From: a virus
IMG/VR virus record: IMGVR_UViG_3300037248_000024
Span: 1-64,000 of that record
DNA length: 64,000 nucleotides
Reading direction: 5' to 3' (one strand)
Numbering within the stretch: position 1 is the first letter of the stretch; each line of letters begins with the position of its first letter. The position numbers were made by a program, and so were the translations under genes. The notes beneath the pieces were generated by a model. The model had not been told where the DNA came from. It saw nothing but the letters and a program-made list of their open reading frames with translations, and made no database searches. Of this stretch, positions 2,698 to 60,414 are shown piece by piece.

Positions 2698-3609
2698 ATG
2701 GCAATCAATGTCGCGGCCCTCTACGATCTGACTCGCCCCGGCCTTCGCGGGATCGAGGGCAAATACAAGATGATTCCTCGGCAATGGCCGAAGTATCTGG
2801 AGCGCGGAACCTCCAAGATGGGGATCGAGCGCACCGCCGAAGTCCGCTTCGTCAGCCTGCCGCAGTTGAAGTTCGAGGGCGGCGCCACGGCGATGGACAA
2901 CAACGCCGGCGAACGCTTCATCTTCAACCACGAAGCGTTCGAGATCGGCTTGGGTTACGCGATGACCCGCAAGGCCATCGCGGACAACCTCTACGAGTCG
3001 CAGTTTCCGGCATCGAATCTCGGGCTTCAGAACAGCTTCGAACAGGCCGAGGAAATCTATTCGGCCAACGTGCTGAACAGTTCGACGACCTATAACCCGA
3101 ACATCGGCGGCGATGGCGTGGCGCTCCTATCCACCGCGCATCCCATCGACGGCGGAACCTACGCCAACACCTTCACCACGCAGTTGGACCTGTCCGAGGC
3201 ATCGCTGTTGCAGGCGCTGACCAACATGCGGACCAACTTCGTCGATCAGGCCGGGTTGAAAGTCTTTGCCCGCGGCAAGAAGCTTCTGGTGCCACCAGCA
3301 CTGGAATGGGTCGCGGCCCGGTTGTGGCATTCCACGCTGCGCGTTGGGACCGGCGATAACGACCCCAACGCGATGCGGGTCACCGGCTCGCTGAGCGACG
3401 GTTACGACGTGTTGGACTTCCTGACATCGTCCACATACTGGTTCGTGCTGTCGAACATTCCGGGGTTGATCTTCCTGGAACGGGAACCGTTTGAGATGTC
3501 GATGGAAGTGGACTTTATCACAGATAACCTCTTGGTAAAAGGATATCAACGTTATTATGTCGGATACTACAATCCGCGGGCCGTTTTTGGAAGTACGCCA
3601 AGTACGTAG
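2698..3609 (+). CDS. Major capsid protein, Mu gpT-like
   Basis: A 303-residue protein with a strong ribosome site (AAGGGAG) ahead of ATG. The segment around residues 141-151 (ALLSTAHPIDGG) is characteristic of the Mu gpT-like family of HK97-fold shell proteins, as are the N-terminal helical arm and the hydrophobic C-terminal strand region. The length fits a mature shell subunit without a long delta domain. It should build the icosahedral head, using the upstream coiled-coil protein as scaffold. A second, unrelated capsid-family gene lies at 56.7-57.6 kb on the other strand, but this copy has the canonical position. Confidence 0.82.
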   Translation: MAINVAALYDLTRPGLRGIEGKYKMIPRQWPKYLERGTSKMGIERTAEVRFVSLPQLKFEGGATAMDNNAGERFIFNHEAFEIGLGYAMTRKAIADNLYESQFPASNLGLQNSFEQAEEIYSANVLNSSTTYNPNIGGDGVALLSTAHPIDGGTYANTFTTQLDLSEASLLQALTNMRTNFVDQAGLKVFARGKKLLVPPALEWVAARLWHSTLRVGTGDNDPNAMRVTGSLSDGYDVLDFLTSSTYWFVLSNIPGLIFLEREPFEMSMEVDFITDNLLVKGYQRYYVGYYNPRAVFGSTPST

Positions 3610-4761: not shown

Positions 4762-5675
4762 GCATCACCTCCCATCAAGGCCCCCTCTTCGTTCCCGGCG
4801 CCGGTCCCGCGATCGGCGGTGTCACGATCGACACCAACGACAGCGCGGGGCCGTCATGCTTCGCGCACGGCGTCGGCATCGTCGATACCCGTTTCGGTCC
4901 TTTCGGGGGCGCCGATATTACCGCTGTCCGCCCGGTCTGGTGGGGATCGGATTTCATCTGTGTCCTCGATCAGGTTCCCGCCGCGTTGAGCACGACCAAC
5001 ATCGTGGCCGCCGCCGTGCCGGTTGCCGGAACGCCGATGACCCTGGCCGGGGCGTCCACCGGCATCACGGTTCTCGCCACACCTCTGTCCATCATCGCGG
5101 GCCAGGTCTTTCCCGCGGGCGCGTTGATGATCGACGGCAACCCCGCTTTAATCACGTTGGCGGCGGTTGGCGGCGGGGTGTCGATGTACGATCCCCGCAC
5201 CATGTCGGCGCGGACGCTGCTGTTTACCTCAGCCGGTAACGACAGTTCCGCGACCGCGACCGTGGTTGGTCAGGACATGTACGGCTACACCATCCACGAC
5301 ACCGTGACGTTGACGAACGCATCAACGGTGGCGACGACGAAGGCATTCAAGTCGGTGCAGTCCGTCACTCCGGCTGGCACCTTGTCCGGGTCGAATCTGA
5401 GCGTGGGCGTCAATGATACCTATGAGTTCGGCCTGGCGGCATGGGAGTTCCAGTTCGTGCAAATCTACTGGAACAGCACGTTGATCTCGGCTTCGACGGG
5501 GTATACCGCGCCGGTTACCACGACGCCATCGGCTACGACCGGGGATGTGCGGGGCACTTACACCGTGCAATCGTCGTCCGATGGAACGAAGAAGCTTCAG
5601 ATGTTCGTCCGGCCACAACCATGGAATCTGGTCGCGACGGGTGCCAATAGCCTGTTCGGCCAGGTGCAGTTTTGA
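4758..5675 (+). CDS. Probable virion structural protein
   Basis: A 305-residue beta-rich protein, high in Thr, Ala, Gly and Val, with no membrane segment or enzyme motif. It follows the capsid block and overlaps the homing-endonuclease stop by ATGA, so the endonuclease is translationally tied into the virion operon. A head, vertex or collar component is plausible, but I cannot name a family. Confidence 0.55.
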   Translation: MSITSHQGPLFVPGAGPAIGGVTIDTNDSAGPSCFAHGVGIVDTRFGPFGGADITAVRPVWWGSDFICVLDQVPAALSTTNIVAAAVPVAGTPMTLAGASTGITVLATPLSIIAGQVFPAGALMIDGNPALITLAAVGGGVSMYDPRTMSARTLLFTSAGNDSSATATVVGQDMYGYTIHDTVTLTNASTVATTKAFKSVQSVTPAGTLSGSNLSVGVNDTYEFGLAAWEFQFVQIYWNSTLISASTGYTAPVTTTPSATTGDVRGTYTVQSSSDGTKKLQMFVRPQPWNLVATGANSLFGQVQF

Positions 5676-6660: not shown

Positions 6661-7238
6661 CCCATCCCGCCCAACATCTCGTCGATGCGTCTCGTAAGCG
6701 GCAACGCGCGTGGGTGGAAGGGCGCGCGCGTGGTGGGCGTGCCGACAGGCCGGGGAAGTTGAAGGGCGGGGCGTCGGAGAATCGGGAGTCGCAGTCCACG
6801 TCGTTGCCGCCCGATCCGCATATTGAGAACGAGAAGGCACCGATCGGACGGGCGCGGGGCGGACGGGCGGATGGGGGTTCAGCCAGTAATCCAGCCGACT
6901 GGACGCCTGAAAAACGTGAAGCCTGGGAGCGTGAGAGCAGAGACTTTCGTGAACAGACCTTGCCTTCGTTGGAACAGGAGCGTGATGCTACCGCGCAGGG
7001 CGAAAAGGCCCGAGGCGGCGAAATCGCCCGCACCCCTTCCGGCGGCGTAAAGGCCAGCGCGAGACACAAGGCGGAACGCGAGGGCCACACGATGAAGGGT
7101 GGTTCGTTCCCTATCCGAAACGCTTCTGACCTCGCCAACGCCAAGCACGATGTCGGCCGCGCGAAAGACCCTGCCGCGGCACGTCGCTGGATCAACCGAC
7201 GCGCCCGCGAACTCGGCGAACCGCCGTTGGGTGCGTAG
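6657..7238 (+). CDS. xGG-repeat protein with C-terminal DUF6582-like segment
   Basis: A 193-residue protein starting at GTG in a GTGA overlap. The first 140 residues are basic and low in complexity with repeated RARGGRAD, KARGGE and MKGG units. The last ~45 residues (from FPIRNASDLANAKHDV) resemble the short helical module seen at the ends of many phage head proteins (DUF6582-like), in which a small domain ends in paired helices rich in Ala and Arg. A head-associated role is inferred from neighbours. Confidence 0.55.
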   Translation: MTHPAQHLVDASRKRQRAWVEGRARGGRADRPGKLKGGASENRESQSTSLPPDPHIENEKAPIGRARGGRADGGSASNPADWTPEKREAWERESRDFREQTLPSLEQERDATAQGEKARGGEIARTPSGGVKASARHKAEREGHTMKGGSFPIRNASDLANAKHDVGRAKDPAAARRWINRRARELGEPPLGA

Positions 7239-36162: not shown

Positions 36163-38262
36163 TCAGAAAGTGACTTTGAGTGTGCGAGAGAACGCCCCCT
36201 TGACGCGGGCGATGACGTGGTTTCGTTGCGTTGACGAAAAGCCGAGGCCCGAGAGTTGGTTCACGGTCTCGTCCGTCCGCATCTTCGCGCCGACCATTTC
36301 CAGAACCTTGCGGTGTTGGTCGAGATCGGCGCGGAGAAACTCATTGTAGAAACCGCGCGCCGTGCCGTCGTTCTGGCAACCATCCAGCATGAAGAAATAG
36401 TGCTTGTTTCCGACGCCATGACCGTCCCAATGGTTCGGAGAAAGCATGGCGACGGTCACGCGGTGGAAGGCTTCGGTGTCGATGGACCAGACCTTGCGCG
36501 ATACCGTGGTCATCGGGAGTGGACTGATTACGGTCAGGTTTCCGTTCTTGTAGTGAAGTTCCGCCACCACGACGCGTTCGCCTTGCCGCAACGCCTTGGG
36601 ATAGGCGAAGCGATGAACTGACCCCTTCCAGTCAATCTCCGCCTCGAAACCAACATCGGCGGTTTCTATCTTGGCGTATTGGTGGACGAACAGATTGTAA
36701 GTTCCTTCCGCCATACGATGCGCGGAGCCATAGAAGATATTCTCGACTGGTTCGCGCGTGCCGCGCCCAGGCGAACCACCACCAGCATTCATGTCCACGT
36801 CAAGTTGGCCACCGAGGCGAGATGGGCCTTTGTTCGCAAAGTGGATTTCGTTTCGGTCCGGCTCGACCATGTGAAAATCCAGGTCATCGAAATTCGACCA
36901 CGCCAACCGGCAACACAGATCGCCCGACACATTGCCTCCGGCCTTCTTCACGCGCTCCCGAATGGAATCCGCGAAGTCGCCGTTATAGGACCACGAAAAG
37001 CGGTTGTCCCATTTGAACAACGCTGCGGCCGACGCGTCGGCTGGCGCGATCAGAGACACCAGATTGCCGACGTGACGATTCTCCACCATGACTTCAATCG
37101 ATTCCGCCTTCGGAACGACATCCCCCAAAAACTTCTCAATGCCGATCTCTTCGACTTTATCGAAGGTCTTGGGCTTAACCGATGCCGTCGCGGCGAGGTC
37201 ATCGAACACGCCGCCGCCTGACATCGCCTTTCTGGCGTTGCGATCCGCGAACAGGATGTTGTTCACCGTGATATCGGTCAGGCGCGCGTAGCGGCGTTCC
37301 AACGCGGAAGTCAGGCCGAGTTCCGCGACAGTCGCTTTGGCGCGCTCGATCATCGCCTTGGTGACAAGCGCGGTGGGACGCTTGTAATTCGCGGGCGCGA
37401 CCATCGCCTCGAACTTCCGAACGGCACCTTCCATATCTTCGCCAGCGGAAAAGTCGATCAGCAACTGGCCGATGGATGTGTTTCGGATTTTGGAGACCGA
37501 GGCCGGGAGTTCCCCGATTTTCAGCCACACGAAATTGTCGCGATCTTCCGCCGCCAGCCTGTCGAAGGCGATCTTTTCCTGGCGGAACGTCGTCACGGCA
37601 TGGCGATGTTCCTCGCCGCGATAGAGTGAGTTCTGGCCGATCAGTTCGAGAACGGTATCGGCGGCGTCCATCGTCAGTTCGGTGAGTGAACGCAACAGGA
37701 CATCATGGGCCGCTTTCGAGTCAGACAGGCGTGGACCAATATCCTTTCCCGCGCATACTCGGCTGTTCGGAAGCGTGACGAAGAAATGCTCCCACGCCTT
37801 CACGACACCATCGGTGTCCTCGAAATTCTTGTCGGTCCCGACCTTGGCTTCGGTGTGCAGGAAACGGTTCTCGATGGCGCGTGCCTTGACCAGATCGCAC
37901 ATCGCCGTTGCTACGGCGTCATAGGTCGGATTGCCCGTGTAGATGTCCCAGATTGAGGTTAGTTTGCCGTCAATGATGGCGACCATATCCCCAATGGCGC
38001 GCACGAACTGACGGCAGCACGAACAGTCGTGCTCGGCGCGCTGGCGCATGATCGGGTTGGTGCCGGGCGGGAAACTGGTGAGGTAGGTTGTCCAGAGCGC
38101 GTCTTTCTCAACTCCGGTGCGGAACAATTCGTACGTGGACATGAACCCAAACTGAGCGGCGACGGCGGTTTTGATTTGGTGGAAGCCGGGATGATCCGGA
38201 ATGGTATTCGCCAGCGTTTCAGCTTTCGCGGCGACGGCGCGACGGCCAACGTGAGAGATCAT
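36163..38262 (-). CDS. Large phage protein with C-terminal YfaP/DUF2135-like domain
   Basis: Start at 38262 gives 699 residues; an earlier ATG at 38319 would run into the tRNA-Thr gene and is rejected. The N-terminal half is helical with a cysteine-rich patch (EHDCSCCRQFVRAIGDMVAIID). From about residue 455 to 580 lies a segment (AWSNFDDLDFHMVEPDRNEI, later RLGGQLDVDMNAGGG) close to the YfaP/DUF2135 beta domain, whose D-x-D-x-H motif resembles a metal-binding loop. The protein is transcribed behind two tRNA genes. Its role is unknown; it is too large and conserved to be filler. Confidence 0.65.
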   Translation of the reverse strand: MISHVGRRAVAAKAETLANTIPDHPGFHQIKTAVAAQFGFMSTYELFRTGVEKDALWTTYLTSFPPGTNPIMRQRAEHDCSCCRQFVRAIGDMVAIIDGKLTSIWDIYTGNPTYDAVATAMCDLVKARAIENRFLHTEAKVGTDKNFEDTDGVVKAWEHFFVTLPNSRVCAGKDIGPRLSDSKAAHDVLLRSLTELTMDAADTVLELIGQNSLYRGEEHRHAVTTFRQEKIAFDRLAAEDRDNFVWLKIGELPASVSKIRNTSIGQLLIDFSAGEDMEGAVRKFEAMVAPANYKRPTALVTKAMIERAKATVAELGLTSALERRYARLTDITVNNILFADRNARKAMSGGGVFDDLAATASVKPKTFDKVEEIGIEKFLGDVVPKAESIEVMVENRHVGNLVSLIAPADASAAALFKWDNRFSWSYNGDFADSIRERVKKAGGNVSGDLCCRLAWSNFDDLDFHMVEPDRNEIHFANKGPSRLGGQLDVDMNAGGGSPGRGTREPVENIFYGSAHRMAEGTYNLFVHQYAKIETADVGFEAEIDWKGSVHRFAYPKALRQGERVVVAELHYKNGNLTVISPLPMTTVSRKVWSIDTEAFHRVTVAMLSPNHWDGHGVGNKHYFFMLDGCQNDGTARGFYNEFLRADLDQHRKVLEMVGAKMRTDETVNQLSGLGFSSTQRNHVIARVKGAFSRTLKVTF

Positions 38263-38309
38263 GTTCGTATCCAGCCCCTGAGAACCGCCGAGGACGCGCG
38301 GAGGCAAAA

Positions 38310-38384
38310 TGGTGCCCAACCAAGGATTTGAACCTCGGACCCACGGTTTACAAAACCGTTGCTCTACCCCTGAGCTAGTCGGGC
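38310..38384 (-). tRNA. tRNA-Thr (anticodon TGT)
   Basis: The minus strand folds as a complete cloverleaf: GCCCGAC pairs with GTTGGGC, D-stem GCTC/GAGC, anticodon stem ACGGT/ACCGT with loop TTTGTAA, T-stem CGAGG/CCTTG, and an encoded CCA. It reads ACA, a codon normally rare in GC-rich hosts. Confidence 0.9.
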
Positions 38385-38387
38385 GTA

Positions 38388-38464
38388 TGGCGCGCCATCC
38401 ACGGCTCGAACGTGGGACCTCCGCTTCCGAAGAGCGGCGCTCTATCCAACTGAGCTAACGGCGC
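38388..38464 (-). tRNA. tRNA-Arg (anticodon TCG)
   Basis: Complete cloverleaf: GCGCCGT pairs with ATGGCGC, D-stem GCTC/GAGC, anticodon stem CCGCT/AGCGG with loop CTTCGGA, T-stem CCACG/CGTGG, encoded CCA. Only three bases separate it from tRNA-Thr. It reads CGA. Confidence 0.9.
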
Positions 38465-39023: not shown

Positions 39024-40052
39024 CTACGGACGATAACCAAGAATGTCAGCCAAATCCGCGCGGGCGCGTGACACGCGGCTTTTCATTGTTCCCACGGGAA
39101 CACCAACCTTTTCCGCCATGTCCTCATAGGACATTGACGATACACCGATCATCAGAAGCGCCTGACGATGTTCAGGACTTAATTTAGCCATGGCGGCTTT
39201 CAGGTCCAGAAATTCCATCCGGCTTTCTTGCGCGGGAGCGACTTTAACCGCCATCGCGTGAACGTCGTCAACGTCCTCGACCTCGCGCCCGCTTTTTCGA
39301 AAGTCGCCGTAATATAGGTTACGAAGAATAGTCATCAGCCATGCGATCATGTTCGATCCGGCCTGAAATGACTCGGCATTCGCCCAGGCTCTCGCTATCG
39401 TATCTTGCACCAGATCGTCAGCACGAGATGAATTCCGGCAGAGCGACATAGCGAAATTCCGTAGACGCGGCATAAGGGACAACATTTCATTTTGGAATTC
39501 CGCCGGAACAGTTGGCGCGATAACAATCTCTTTGGTGGGGTTAGCCAACGCGAGACGTGCAACGGTGGCCTTATTTAGCGTCCCCCTTTTACGGCCAGCG
39601 ATTCCAGTCCGGCGCAACACCCCCCGGAAATCGGACGGCCTATATAAATGAAGGAAAGCGGCGCGCGACTGAACTTTTGATGCTGTTATGTCCGAGCGAC
39701 TAAACGTCAGATTGATCTTATCCGCGATTAAAGCCGGTAAAATTCCAGCGACCCACCCCTCATGTAGGGTCGCATCCATCTCGGCTGTCCATACCTTGCG
39801 CCATGTCGAGAGGAATTCCGCCACCCTCGGCATCGTTGCCTTGCGATGCTGGCAACTTCCTTTGTGTCCCGCCGGTCGTCCACAAGGGCACGGCGGTCGC
39901 GCGACTGCCATCATGTATTTGCGGCATGTCGTCCAGTTGATGCCCGTCCTGACTGATGCCCGATGGTAGGTGACGCCATCCGAGGCTAGGCCACGGAGAA
40001 TGGCGCGCGCGTCTTCTGCCAGCGGTATTCGTCTGCCTCCTAGCGTGCTCAT
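39024..40052 (-). CDS. EcfG-like ECF sigma factor fused to HTH, zinc knuckle and GcrA-like domains
   Basis: 342 residues. Residues ~10-50 look like a helix-turn-helix. C55, C57, H63, C67 and H69 form a compact zinc motif (CPCGRPAGHKGSC). Residues ~85-135 (WTAEMDATLHEGWVAGILPALIADKI) resemble a GcrA/Myb-type DNA-binding fold. Residues ~188-255 are sigma region 2 (MPRLRNFAMSLCRN, DDLVQDTIARAWAN, MIAWLMTILRN). Residues ~285-338 are region 4 (MSYEDMAEKVGVPVGTMKSRVSRARADL). The sigma half is close to EcfG, the alphaproteobacterial stress sigma. It should bind host RNA polymerase and redirect it; the added domains may supply promoter choice. The message is predicted to be leaderless. Confidence 0.75.
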   Translation of the reverse strand: MSTLGGRRIPLAEDARAILRGLASDGVTYHRASVRTGINWTTCRKYMMAVARPPCPCGRPAGHKGSCQHRKATMPRVAEFLSTWRKVWTAEMDATLHEGWVAGILPALIADKINLTFSRSDITASKVQSRAAFLHLYRPSDFRGVLRRTGIAGRKRGTLNKATVARLALANPTKEIVIAPTVPAEFQNEMLSLMPRLRNFAMSLCRNSSRADDLVQDTIARAWANAESFQAGSNMIAWLMTILRNLYYGDFRKSGREVEDVDDVHAMAVKVAPAQESRMEFLDLKAAMAKLSPEHRQALLMIGVSSMSYEDMAEKVGVPVGTMKSRVSRARADLADILGYRP

Positions 40053-40057
40053 GGCTC

Positions 40058-40086
40058 ATTATCCCGTCGGACCCGTTGACAGTCAA
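40058..40086 (-). promoter_or_regulatory. Promoter of the sigma-fusion gene
   Basis: Minus strand: TTGACT (40086-40081), 17 bases, then GATAAT (40063-40058), a near-consensus sigma70 promoter. Only five bases separate the -10 box from the ATG at 40052, so the mRNA should begin at or within a base or two of the start codon. The -35 shares the palindrome TTGACAGTCAA with the opposing promoter. Confidence 0.75.
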
Positions 40087-40105
40087 TCCCGTCCTACCGT
40101 ATAAC
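40076..40105 (+). promoter_or_regulatory. Divergent promoter of the 40.1 kb repressor-like operon
   Basis: Plus strand: TTGACA (40076-40081), 18 bases, then TATAAC (40100-40105), six bases before the ATG at 40112. Its -35 box overlaps that of the opposite promoter by one base, within one 11-base palindrome (40076-40086). Two polymerases cannot bind at once. Confidence 0.75.
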
Positions 40106-40111
40106 CCCGCC

Positions 40112-40273
40112 ATGGCCAAGCCGAAGGTCCTGGGAGACCGTATCACCGTGCGACTGCCGACCGGAACGCTCGCGGCGATCAAGGCTTCGTTGAAGCCGGA
40201 GGAAACCATGCAGGGCAAGTTGCAGGCCGTGATCGTTCGCCTCGCTACCCGCGGCCAGGCCACCGCCGCGTGA
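40112..40273 (+). CDS. Small ribbon-helix-helix-like regulator
   Basis: A 53-residue protein (MAKPKVLGDRITVRLPTG...). A basic beta strand (DRITVRLP) followed by two helices fits the Arc/CopG fold. There is no ribosome site; the -10 box ends six bases before ATG, predicting leaderless translation. As the first gene opposite the sigma fusion, it is the natural candidate to bind the shared promoter region. It overlaps the next gene by GTGA. Confidence 0.6.
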   Translation: MAKPKVLGDRITVRLPTGTLAAIKASLKPEETMQGKLQAVIVRLATRGQATAA

Positions 40274-40578
40274 GCCCGATTCCCGTCGAGGTTCTGGCGT
40301 CCGTTCGTGCCCGTTCTTGCCGCCGTGCTGGCGCCTGCATCGCGCACGCCATGGCCGAGACCGATACCGGCTTTAATGAGATGGCCGCCCGTCTCGGCGT
40401 TTCGGAACCCGCGCTCCAGAGACGGCTTACCGCGATGCTAAATGGAACGAACACCGACCTGGATATCATTTCGGATATGTTGTTCGCCTGCGGATGCGAA
40501 TTGAAAACCGGCGTCCAGAAATCGAATGAGGCAGTTGGTGCCGTTGTCGCCGGTGAAGGCGAGAGGGGCGCTGCGTGA
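40270..40578 (+). CDS. HTH protein, Cro/XRE-like
   Basis: A 102-residue protein starting at GTG in a GTGA overlap. ETDTGFNEMAARLGVSEPALQRRLTAML is a good helix-turn-helix, with DLDIISDMLFACGCEL behind it as in small XRE proteins. It has two Cys pairs (SCRRAGAC, CGC). Probably works with the preceding small regulator in controlling the 40 kb switch. Confidence 0.6.
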   Translation: MSPIPVEVLASVRARSCRRAGACIAHAMAETDTGFNEMAARLGVSEPALQRRLTAMLNGTNTDLDIISDMLFACGCELKTGVQKSNEAVGAVVAGEGERGAA

Positions 40579-40730
40579 GCCTCTGGACCATCATCTACGT
40601 CGGCCTCGCCTGTTTCTTCGTTGGCGTATTTGCTGGCCAGGGCATTCGCGTGAACATCAACTATCTGGAACTCGCCGCGTATCGGCTGGTCGCGAGGCGG
40701 CGGTACGACAGGGAAGGGGATGTATCGTGA
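40575..40730 (+). CDS. Tiny membrane protein
   Basis: A 51-residue protein with one N-terminal membrane helix (IIYVGLACFFVGVFAGQGI) and a basic tail, coupled by GTGA overlaps to genes on both sides. Function unknown. Confidence 0.5.
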   Translation: MSLWTIIYVGLACFFVGVFAGQGIRVNINYLELAAYRLVARRRYDREGDVS

Positions 40731-40975
40731 GGGAACTCCCGAAGTGGTTATCGCCACGGACTCGTTGGGCGATCACGCAACCCGAGATGACGGCGGAACA
40801 ATTCTTTGAGGCCCGGGTTTTTCTCAAGATGACACAGCACTATCTCGCGCGATTGCTCGCCGTTTCCGAACAATCCGTGCGCCGATGGGAACATGGAAAG
40901 TCTCGTATTCCGCGACCCGCGCAAACGCTGGTCCGCGCCATGGTCTGGGATGAATTGCCGGAGAAGCCCGCGTGA
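40727..40975 (+). CDS. XRE-like transcriptional regulator
   Basis: An 82-residue protein starting at GTG. The segment ARVFLKMTQHYLARLLAVSEQSVRRWEHGKSRIP is a typical XRE/MqsA-type helix-turn-helix, with SEQSVRRWE as recognition helix. Third regulator-like gene in the 40 kb operon. Confidence 0.65.
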   Translation: MRELPKWLSPRTRWAITQPEMTAEQFFEARVFLKMTQHYLARLLAVSEQSVRRWEHGKSRIPRPAQTLVRAMVWDELPEKPA

Positions 40976-56693: not shown

Positions 56694-57623
56694 TCACGCC
56701 ATGTGCTCCACACAAACCGCGCGCTGAAACTTCCCATCCAGCCGCATTCGAGGTGCGAAGCCGCCGCACCAATACCAGGACTGCGCGATGATCTGTTGCA
56801 ACCGATCGACCGGCGCGCGGGTGACCATGGCGACGCCATCCACCAGTTCCGTTATTGCGTTCGCCGGTCTGAAGTCATCAGCGAGCATCCCGGCGCGATC
56901 TGCTTCAACTAGCGCGCCCGCGCCGCAAATATATATTCGCCGCACGAGGCGCTGACTCAGGGCCGGGTGTTGCTCAACAAACCATTCCGTGGTCGGCAGA
57001 AAACGAACGCCCAGGAAATCGTTGACCATTCCCTTGCGGAAGACCTGGTTGGCCGATGCCGCACCTTGAAACAATGCCCTAAAGTCAGGATCGGAGAACA
57101 ACTGACGGGCCGAAACCGGGTCCAGGTGGCAGTTAAACGCTCCATCGATTTGCGGAACACCAGCATTCAAAAGTTCCGCGACGCCATCAAGCAGCGCTTG
57201 CATGGTCAGAAGATCGCCAGCCAACAATTCAGCCGTTTCGCTCCGGCGATTGACACGGAACACTGAATCCGGGTCGGCTTCGAAGCCGCGGCGCAAGGCG
57301 TTCCGAGCGAGTTCGTCGAGGCTTCGCGCGGCCTGTTCGCCGTTGGTGTATGCGTTTTGTAAGAACTGGCTGGCGATGCCAACGCGCGCGACCATCATAT
57401 TGAGGTCGCTGATGGCGGCATAGTGATTGACCTGAAATTCCGCGATTTCGTTGCCGGCTGTAAAATCACCCTCCTGACCGATACCCACATCCGTATCAAT
57501 ACGATCAGCACAGAGCCGGTAGGATTTACGTGAGTTCAGCGCCTGCTCGAACTCGCGCGCCAGGAACCCTTGCTGGATGAGAGGTTGAAGCATGGCGGGG
57601 AAGTTTCGGATATTGTCTTTCAT
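56694..57623 (-). CDS. Second capsid-like protein in the early operon
   Basis: A 309-residue protein. AMLQPLIQQGFLAREFEQAL at the start, NHYAAISDLNMMVARVGIAS with SLDELARNALRRGF in the middle, then LDPVSARQLFSDPDFRALFQG, NDFLGVRFLPTTEWFV and TRAPVDRLQQIIAQSWYWCG at the end follow, in order, a known phage capsid-type family (N4-gp56-like shell proteins). It appears shorter than usual. Unlike the gene at 2.7 kb it lies among early genes on the other strand. Its role is open: alternative shell protein, decoy, or recruited fold. Confidence 0.5.
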   Translation of the reverse strand: MKDNIRNFPAMLQPLIQQGFLAREFEQALNSRKSYRLCADRIDTDVGIGQEGDFTAGNEIAEFQVNHYAAISDLNMMVARVGIASQFLQNAYTNGEQAARSLDELARNALRRGFEADPDSVFRVNRRSETAELLAGDLLTMQALLDGVAELLNAGVPQIDGAFNCHLDPVSARQLFSDPDFRALFQGAASANQVFRKGMVNDFLGVRFLPTTEWFVEQHPALSQRLVRRIYICGAGALVEADRAGMLADDFRPANAITELVDGVAMVTRAPVDRLQQIIAQSWYWCGGFAPRMRLDGKFQRAVCVEHMA

Positions 57624-59111: not shown

Positions 59112-59240
59112 GCTCTGCTCCTTTCGGATTCAGATTTCCGAAGCTCGACATCAAGCCGTCCTCCGGATGCTTCCTGCTTCGTCCGGTCCTTTAGGAGGAT
59201 GTCCGTCCACAGGCTTCAACGCGCTGTCCGCGCGCCGTAG
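59112..59240 (-). ncRNA. Candidate omegaRNA (reRNA) of TnpB
   Basis: TnpB guide RNAs normally arise from the end of the gene plus its downstream edge. Here that stretch has several potential hairpins, including TTCGGA-N8-TCCGAA right after the stop codon (59118-59137). The next ~20 bases, which overlap the following gene's start, would serve as guide. Boundaries are a guess. Confidence 0.35.
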
Positions 59241-60356
59241 TATGATGATCGCCGCGTTGGTGTCGGCATTGGCTTCGTATCCGCATCCTGTGCAGACAAA
59301 CCGTACCTGATCCTGTCGGCTTCGTGCATCCACCACGCCACATTCAGCGCACGTCTGGCTTGTGTATGCGGCTGGAACTTCGATGAGCCTGCCACCACGA
59401 TCCGCCAGCTTGTAGGCCAGCATGGTCCGGAAACCGCCCCATCCCTGATCCAGAATGGCACGGTTCAGCGCTGCCTTTTGCCGGACCATCCTGCCCGGTT
59501 CGGCTGCGGTGCCTTTCGCAGATGCGGTCATGTTCCGCACCTTCAATGCCTCCAAAACGACAGCGCCGTGGTTCTTGGCGATGTCAGTTGAAACCTTATG
59601 GAGGAAGTTCTTACGGGCGTTCGCCACCCGCATCTGTATCTTCGCCACGCGGCGGATGGCCTTGCGGCGATTGGACGAACCGCGCTTCTTGCGGCTCAGG
59701 TCGCGTTGCGCCTTCCGGAGCGCCCGGAGCGCCTTTTTGCCGCAGTTCACCGGGGCGATGTTGACGCCGTTGGACAACGCGGCGAATACAGCGACGCCGC
59801 GATCAATTCCGACCGCTGGCAGAGTGGATGGCGCTGGATCAACTATCTTGTGCTGCCATTGAACGGAGACGCGCCATTGTCCCGCGTGGCGTGAGACAGT
59901 CGCGTTGCGAATGTCTCCAACAACGCGGCGCCAACCTCGAAATGAAATCCACCCTAGTTTTGGCAGTTTAATACGTCCAGAAGAGTTGCCGGTGCGTTCA
60001 ATCCTAAAGGCCTCCGGGTGCGGAAACCGAAAGCTATCATTCAACCCCTTCTTACGCGGCGTTGGGTACCCGGAACGACTCTTCCACCAGTTCTGATAGG
60101 CTTTGTTGAGGTCCATCATCACCTGATGCAACGCATCCGCCGGTACATCCCTAATCCAATCAACTTGCCTTCGAAGCATGGTGACTTCACGGCACTGACT
60201 GGCAAAATTGATCCCCCGTCCGGCGCGGCCAAAAGTCCGCCGCTGTTCCAAGGCGAGGTTGTAGACGAACCGGCACGCACCCGCGAATCGCGCCATTTTC
60301 TGCGATTGCTCGGATGTCGGGTAGAGCCGATAGGTGTTGGCCTTGCGAATAATCAT
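59151..60356 (-). CDS. tnpB: TnpB, IS200/IS605-family RNA-guided nuclease
   Basis: A 401-residue protein (start MIIRKANTYRLYPT). The RuvC catalytic residues are intact: D185 (GIDRGVAVF), E269 (VVLEALKVRNM) and D365 (ANADTNAA). The zinc ribbon is CxxC at 336/339 and 355/358. TnpB proteins use an RNA from the element's right end to cut matching DNA beside a short TAM. No TnpA is near, so the element cannot move alone. It sits at the head of the minus early operon, facing the 60.46 kb repressor. Confidence 0.85.
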   Translation of the reverse strand: MIIRKANTYRLYPTSEQSQKMARFAGACRFVYNLALEQRRTFGRAGRGINFASQCREVTMLRRQVDWIRDVPADALHQVMMDLNKAYQNWWKSRSGYPTPRKKGLNDSFRFPHPEAFRIERTGNSSGRIKLPKLGWISFRGWRRVVGDIRNATVSRHAGQWRVSVQWQHKIVDPAPSTLPAVGIDRGVAVFAALSNGVNIAPVNCGKKALRALRKAQRDLSRKKRGSSNRRKAIRRVAKIQMRVANARKNFLHKVSTDIAKNHGAVVLEALKVRNMTASAKGTAAEPGRMVRQKAALNRAILDQGWGGFRTMLAYKLADRGGRLIEVPAAYTSQTCAECGVVDARSRQDQVRFVCTGCGYEANADTNAAIIILRRADSALKPVDGHPPKGPDEAGSIRRTA

Positions 60357-60376
60357 AGGCGCACCATGCCAGACTC

Positions 60377-60414
60377 CAATCCGCGATGCAATAGCAAAAT
60401 CGCACAATCCGCGA
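60377..60414 (+). promoter_or_regulatory. Possible operator: two CAATCCGCGA direct repeats
   Basis: CAATCCGCGA occurs at 60377-60386 and 60405-60414, 28 bases apart, in the gap between tnpB and the divergent XRE gene, next to the latter's -35 box. Placement suggests a repressor site. Confidence 0.4.

Follow-up and report, generated by a model that had tools for sequence, protein, structure and literature searches.

Divergent Phage Promoters Predicted to Share a Palindromic −35 Region between a Sigma-like Gene and an Operon of Small Proteins

RESULTS

Genes of the Locus

The stretch of DNA analyzed here (the window, 64,000 nt) is the first 64 kb of a 98,050-nt viral record that encodes replication, packaging, and structural genes as well as a ParB-like gene. 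The locus under study is the gap between two divergent start codons, ATG 40052 on the minus strand and ATG 40112 on the plus strand, which have 59 bp between them; the flanking genes and the elements read in the gap are collected in Table 1.

Table 1. Features of the divergent locus, in window coordinates
Feature	Position	Strand	Basis
342-aa ORF, ECF sigma fusion, gene of the leftward promoter	39024..40052	−	Pfam, PHROG, NCBIfam
Leftward −10 box GATAAT, 5/6, spacer 17	40058..40063	−	Read from sequence
Direct repeat copy 1, 13 nt, ATCCCGTCGGACC, between leftward −10 and −35	40061..40073	+	Candidate operator
Palindrome TTGACAGTCAA, shared −35 region	40076..40086	no strand	Read from sequence
Rightward −35 box TTGACA, 6/6	40076..40081	+	Read from sequence
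Leftward −35 box TTGACT, 5/6	40081..40086	−	Read from sequence
Direct repeat copy 2, ATCCCGTCCTACC, 11/13, in rightward promoter spacer	40086..40098	+	Candidate operator
Rightward −10 box TATAAC, 5/6, spacer 18	40100..40105	+	Read from sequence
53-aa protein, first gene of rightward operon	40112..40273	+	Predicted β-α-α
102-aa protein, weak helix-turn-helix similarity	40270..40578	+	Weak HTH call
51-aa small protein, hydrophobic N-terminal half	40575..40730	+	Sequence
82-aa HTH_3 (Cro/CI-type) protein	40727..40975	+	Curated HTH cut-off passed

The sequence-only reading of this DNA had described the left gene as a sigma-factor fusion. Its C-terminal part bears this out: ECF sigma regions 2 and 4 occupy residues ∼184–339, with Pfam matches to Sigma70_r2 (193–256) and Sigma70_r4_2 (283–334) and no region 3, as in ECF sigma factors. 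The ORF also scores above the cut-off of NCBIfam TIGR02937, has PRK12546/PRK12547 as its best NCBIfam models, and matches PHROG 1740; similar phage proteins, at ∼25–36% identity, include sigma factors encoded by Rhizobium and Sinorhizobium phages. Its length departs from that of typical ECF sigma factors, which have ∼160–200 residues without a large N-terminal extension. For the N-terminal ∼180 residues, which carry a CxC…C motif, relatives were sought in phages, plasmids, and Pfam and none were found, and the structure model of the fusion was unusable (pLDDT 44). The first 180 codons have a weak codon-position bias, a Shine-Dalgarno-like run precedes codons 145–146, and the sigma domain, taken by itself, is similar to stand-alone proteins of ∼185 residues, so that translation of the sigma domain from an internal start is conceivable. 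EcfG-type promoters (GGAAC-N-CGTT) were considered as targets of the phage sigma factor and rejected, as 7 were found against 4.5 ± 2.5 expected.

On the other side of the gap, the four genes listed in Table 1 are followed by further genes, including one for a phage lysozyme. They had been read as a chain of small DNA-binding proteins, a description that suits the 82-residue protein, the only one to pass a curated HTH cut-off, and the 53- and 102-residue proteins by weak calls, whereas the 51-residue protein is not recognizable as DNA-binding. The β-α-α order predicted for the 53-residue protein is, at low confidence, compatible with a ribbon-helix-helix fold; despite this agreement in secondary structure the assignment was dropped, as the model is weak and gave no fold match.

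The arrangement appears to be confined to this record among those searched. No carrier of the fusion was found in viral contigs, two distant matches in genome contigs (29–31% identity) covered the sigma domain only, and the fusion was absent from all 50 records linked to this one by other genes. Neither of the first two right-hand proteins was found in viral contigs, and the 102-residue protein had no relative in phages. The region is also absent from phages related through portal and terminase, whose identities there are 29–47%; for the portal-bearing phages the range is 37–47%, leaving aside an identical 4.9-kb fragment.

Farther left, between the sigma gene and a 718-codon ORF (36163–38319, −), are adjacent tRNA genes for Thr (TGT) and Arg (TCG) (38310–38464, −). 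The last 673 residues of the 718-codon ORF match PHROG 1735 (unknown function), and proteins related to it occur at 122 places in viral contigs; the homology mostly starts near residue 46, and the true start is therefore probably downstream.

Two Promoters on One −35 Palindrome

The gap was originally interpreted as holding TTGACA-18-TATAAC toward the right and TTGACT-17-GATAAT toward the left on one palindrome, which is correct to the base. The matches to consensus are 11/12 for the rightward and 10/12 for the leftward promoter. The 11-mer is a perfect dyad except for its central base, an A at 40081 on the plus strand, through which the rightward promoter holds a perfect TTGACA. Base-by-base reading, recomputed, confirms the claimed overlap of the two −35 hexamers but reduces it to its minimum, since base pair 40081 is the only one that they share.

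A feature missing from that first account is that each −10 box adjoins the start codon of the divergent gene on its side. The discriminator from TATAAC to ATG 40112 has 6 nt (CCCGCC) and that from GATAAT to ATG 40052 has 5 nt (GAGCC). From the usual 7-nt distance the rightward start is predicted at 40112, the A of the ATG, and from the position of the −10 box the leftward start at 40052 or 40051, so that the starts of the two directions would be ∼60 bp apart. Because the −10 boxes end 5–6 nt before the ATGs and normal start distances are assumed, both first genes are predicted to be leaderless, with messages beginning at or within the start codon. Shine-Dalgarno pairing is absent from the gene of the 53-residue protein (+0.6 kcal/mol); the sigma gene has a weak match (−4.1), which falls within promoter DNA on the 5′ side of the predicted start.

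Both spacers also contain a copy of a 13-nt direct repeat of the form ATCCCGTC(GG/CT)ACC, with 25 nt from start to start. This repeat was noticed after the fact as a candidate operator, and together with the HTH-type genes on the right it is a candidate repressor/operator set.

First-order Markov genomes matched to the record in length and dinucleotide content served to gauge the rarity of the pair. The 98,050-nt record has seven sites with at least 10/12 consensus matches and a spacing of 16–18; two of these form the present pair, which is the only back-to-back pair in the record with overlapping or abutting −35 boxes. With a mean of 6.1 such promoters per genome, 300 simulated genomes gave one such pair in total, and the true chance probability is lower, because the null did not require both −10 boxes to adjoin divergent start codons. 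By contrast, the bare palindrome with two mismatches allowed was not enriched (12 found versus 10 expected). What is rare is the promoter pair and not the palindrome with two mismatches.

Recurrence in Other Viruses

A scan of all viral contigs (2.9 million) for ATTAT-N12–14-TTGACNGTCAA-N11–13-TATAA matched 43 stretches. They form four families (A–D), between which no nucleotide similarity could be detected, and every one of the 43 is in a short noncoding gap. The site lies between divergent ORFs in families B, C, and probably D; in family A it is upstream of one gene, the other side being ORF-poor, and in one member (L131) it falls in an antisense open frame of 208 codons, which is not recognizable as a gene. 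A control scan with a scrambled palindrome of the same composition (TCAGTNACTGA) and with the same flanks matched 14 stretches in six families, all of them within open frames of 213 codons or more. The true pattern thus did not occur in more families than the control (four versus six), and the contrast rests on location, with 4/4 families noncoding for the true pattern versus 0/6 for the control. In an annotated phage collection, no DNA match was found for the three recurring families tried.

A second, unbiased scan, for a palindromic −35 region with a forward −10 box and an adjacent ATG but with no reverse −10 box demanded, yielded 39 stretches, and outside family B none had a reverse −10 better than 4/6. 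The presence of the palindrome is thus not enough to infer a second promoter, and its use as a mark of bidirectional promoters was rejected, since a good −10 on the second side is missing from most palindromes that have one good promoter. One of the 39, from another phage (L278), has divergent ORFs of 121 and 186 residues, both leaderless, on TTGACNGTCAA, with a weak leftward −10 (TAATAT), and by its sequence closely resembles the gap in the window in architecture. Its palindrome is at 5605 of the reverse strand.

For conservation, 80 homologues of family A were fetched through the adjoining 195-residue gene, a choice independent of the promoter, and 26 distinct upstream sequences from homologues at least 85% identical were analyzed; these are mutually related and do not represent independent events. 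In every one of the 26, TTGACNGTCAA starts precisely 35 nt upstream of the ATG, and the forward gene is again leaderless. The 10 half-site positions are invariant throughout (10/10 in 26/26), and a pairwise identity of 0.96 for the palindrome compares with 0.64 and 0.61 for the spacers. The central base alone varies, being T in 17 sequences, in which the reverse promoter has the perfect TTGACA, and A in the other 9, in which the forward promoter has it. In these 9 the palindrome is kept while the reverse −10 has decayed, a pattern that would fit an operator no less than a promoter. Among homologues at ∼66–72% identity the palindrome is, depending on the subgroup, kept, half lost (CTTGACTGTCGAG), or lost; most of them retain the forward −35 and −10.

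In the family A contig L117 (reverse strand, site at 6953–6999) the reverse promoter faces an ORF-poor stretch of >1 kb, as it does in L131. In both, this stretch, ∼0–1.2 kb to the right of the site, opens with a ACTCCTTAAGGAGT inverted repeat. The reverse promoter of family A possibly gives rise to a noncoding transcript.

DISCUSSION

The claim that divergent promoters are built here on one palindromic −35 region is backed by the sequence, by the simulated null, and by recurrence in unrelated phages. We consider it probable (roughly two chances in three) that the gap holds back-to-back sigma-70 promoters that share the center of their −35 regions, each firing a leaderless gene, and that together they are a mutually exclusive, ratio-setting start. 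Housekeeping (sigma-70-type) host polymerase would read both promoters, leftward into the sigma-like gene and rightward into the operon of small, partly DNA-binding proteins. The canonical footprint of RNA polymerase extends from about −55 to +20, and on this basis the two polymerase complexes are expected to overlap by ∼50 bp, from which we infer, on sound grounds, that they would exclude one another. A polymerase bound in one orientation would block the other and thereby split the early output between the two sides, with base 40081 favoring the rightward side. One of the right-operon products may subsequently alter this division, perhaps by way of the 13-nt repeats present in each spacer. 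The gap would most likely serve as a compact start of two early transcription units, setting their ratio and allowing one at a time.

Other readings of the same DNA give more weight to the palindrome or to one of the promoters. The palindrome could be mainly an operator, at which a small dimeric regulator of the host or the phage (e.g. the 53- or 82-residue protein) represses both directions, the −35 match being a by-product. The nearly perfect dyad, the small DNA-binding-like genes that adjoin it, the 13-nt repeat flanking its center, and the invariance of the family A half-sites, which extends to sequences with a decayed reverse −10, all agree with this. However, an operator has no need for both halves to be near-perfect −35 boxes at a legal distance from −10 boxes that lead into genes; a search for the 11-mer TTGACAGTCAA as a repeated operator of this genome found no other exact copy in the window; and in the more distant relatives of family A the palindrome is half lost or lost but the forward promoter stays. 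An operator as its main function is therefore unlikely, if worth bearing in mind. It is also rather improbable that only one promoter, presumably the rightward one, is used and that the other is fortuitous, the left ORF being expressed otherwise or from an internal start. The lower score of the leftward promoter would fit this, as would the weak codon bias, the Shine-Dalgarno-like run, and the resemblance of the sigma domain to free proteins noted above, but exactly 5 nt separate GATAAT from the first ATG of this 342-codon frame, and equally good pairs are rare in the simulated genomes.

The sequence-only reading went further and saw a bistable switch in the gap. This would entail that the sigma factor and the regulators of the right operon repress or activate each other's promoter, polymerase exclusion sharpening the choice. 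Regulators do lie on both sides of the overlapping promoters, and such promoters can act as a switch if a regulator affects them very differently, as described for the Bacillus plasmid pLS20 (PMC4207663) and for the EcoRV restriction-modification system (PMC5333194). Competition for one site, however, produces anticorrelation and not two stable states, so that geometry alone does not make a switch. In a study by Warman et al. published in 2026, basal activity at all five bidirectional promoters tested was too low for polymerase competition, and interference appeared only once one direction was activated (PMC12825309), which argues against calling the present site bistable on its geometry. No feedback or operator has been demonstrated, EcfG-type promoters are not enriched, and domains of tyrosine integrases (Phage_integrase, PF00589) and serine recombinases (Resolvase, PF00239) had no match in the 98-kb record, which may be incomplete, whereas controls matched both. 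A true switch is thus very improbable and bistability is unsupported. The promoter pair is nevertheless real and unusually neat, and mutual exclusion is likely.

Compact divergent promoters between regulators are a feature of phage lysis-lysogeny regions, such as PR/PRM of phage λ. The present gap differs from these in that an integrase was not found, a CI/Cro pair is not demonstrated, and there is no operator triplet. A comparison with lysis-lysogeny switch regions has also been drawn for the Pc/Pr promoters of pLS20, which resemble those described here in that overlapping divergent core promoters leave room for only one polymerase and a regulator gene lies on one side (PMC4207663). In pLS20, however, the boxes interleave, with a proposed placement of one promoter's −10 over the other's −35, and a regulator with mapped sites loops the DNA (PMC4207663); in the window the −35 boxes are arranged head to head, and the regulator sites are candidates only. 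The core promoters of the EcoRV system likewise overlap on opposite strands with mutually exclusive polymerase binding but are under the control of a C protein with mapped sites, and a palindromic −35 is not mentioned in the passages of that report available to us (PMC5333194).

The bidirectional promoters of Warman, Forrest, Grainger, and colleagues share a pseudo-symmetrical −10 element, with starts that flank it or lie inside it, 7–25 bp, mostly 18 bp, apart (PMC12825309, PMC10268837). As in that class, one DNA symmetry would accommodate polymerase in two orientations, one at a time, and yield divergent mRNAs. The gap falls outside the class, because here the two promoters have the −35 in common but a −10 box each, and the predicted starts are ∼60 bp apart. 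Judged by sequence, it has the geometry of overlapping divergent sigma-70 promoters (shared base pair 40081) and is best called a −35-shared variant of these. A full-text search for the palindrome in the open-licence literature found no prior promoter work.

The recurrence in unrelated phages is a more interesting result than the site in the window itself. We suggest tentatively, and at somewhat less than even odds, that palindromic −35-sharing pairs (TTGACNGTCAA) form a recurrent class of phage control elements, distinct from the −10-sharing bidirectional promoters, in which the one base pair in common serves as a swing base whose A/T transversion flips the bias, and that the window provides a G+C-rich, doubly leaderless example. 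If this is true, an A at the swing base gives one direction TTGACA and the other TTGACT, and an A/T flip leaves the half-sites untouched, so that one base pair of the 40081 type should tune the layout predictably. The recurrence in unrelated phages, together with the invariant palindrome and flipping center of family A, makes this prediction directly testable. With its shared −35, separate −10 boxes, and leaderless genes, the layout would offer a clean natural system in which to measure competition between polymerases, free of the constraints of a shared −10. For the phage of the window, it would point to a first decision, driven by the host polymerase, on whether the sigma-like gene or the regulator operon is read.

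Some further observations concern the phage record as a whole. A transposase gene (PHROG 506) is present within it at 59151–60407 (−). Two unrelated ORFs, at 2698–3609 (+) and 56694–57623 (−), on opposite strands and 53 kb apart, both match PHROG families of major head proteins (371 and 1357). This phage and a 4.9-kb contig from another IMG/VR record (IMGVR_UViG_3300043161_000075) have identical portal proteins, and the same virus may thus be present in a second data set.
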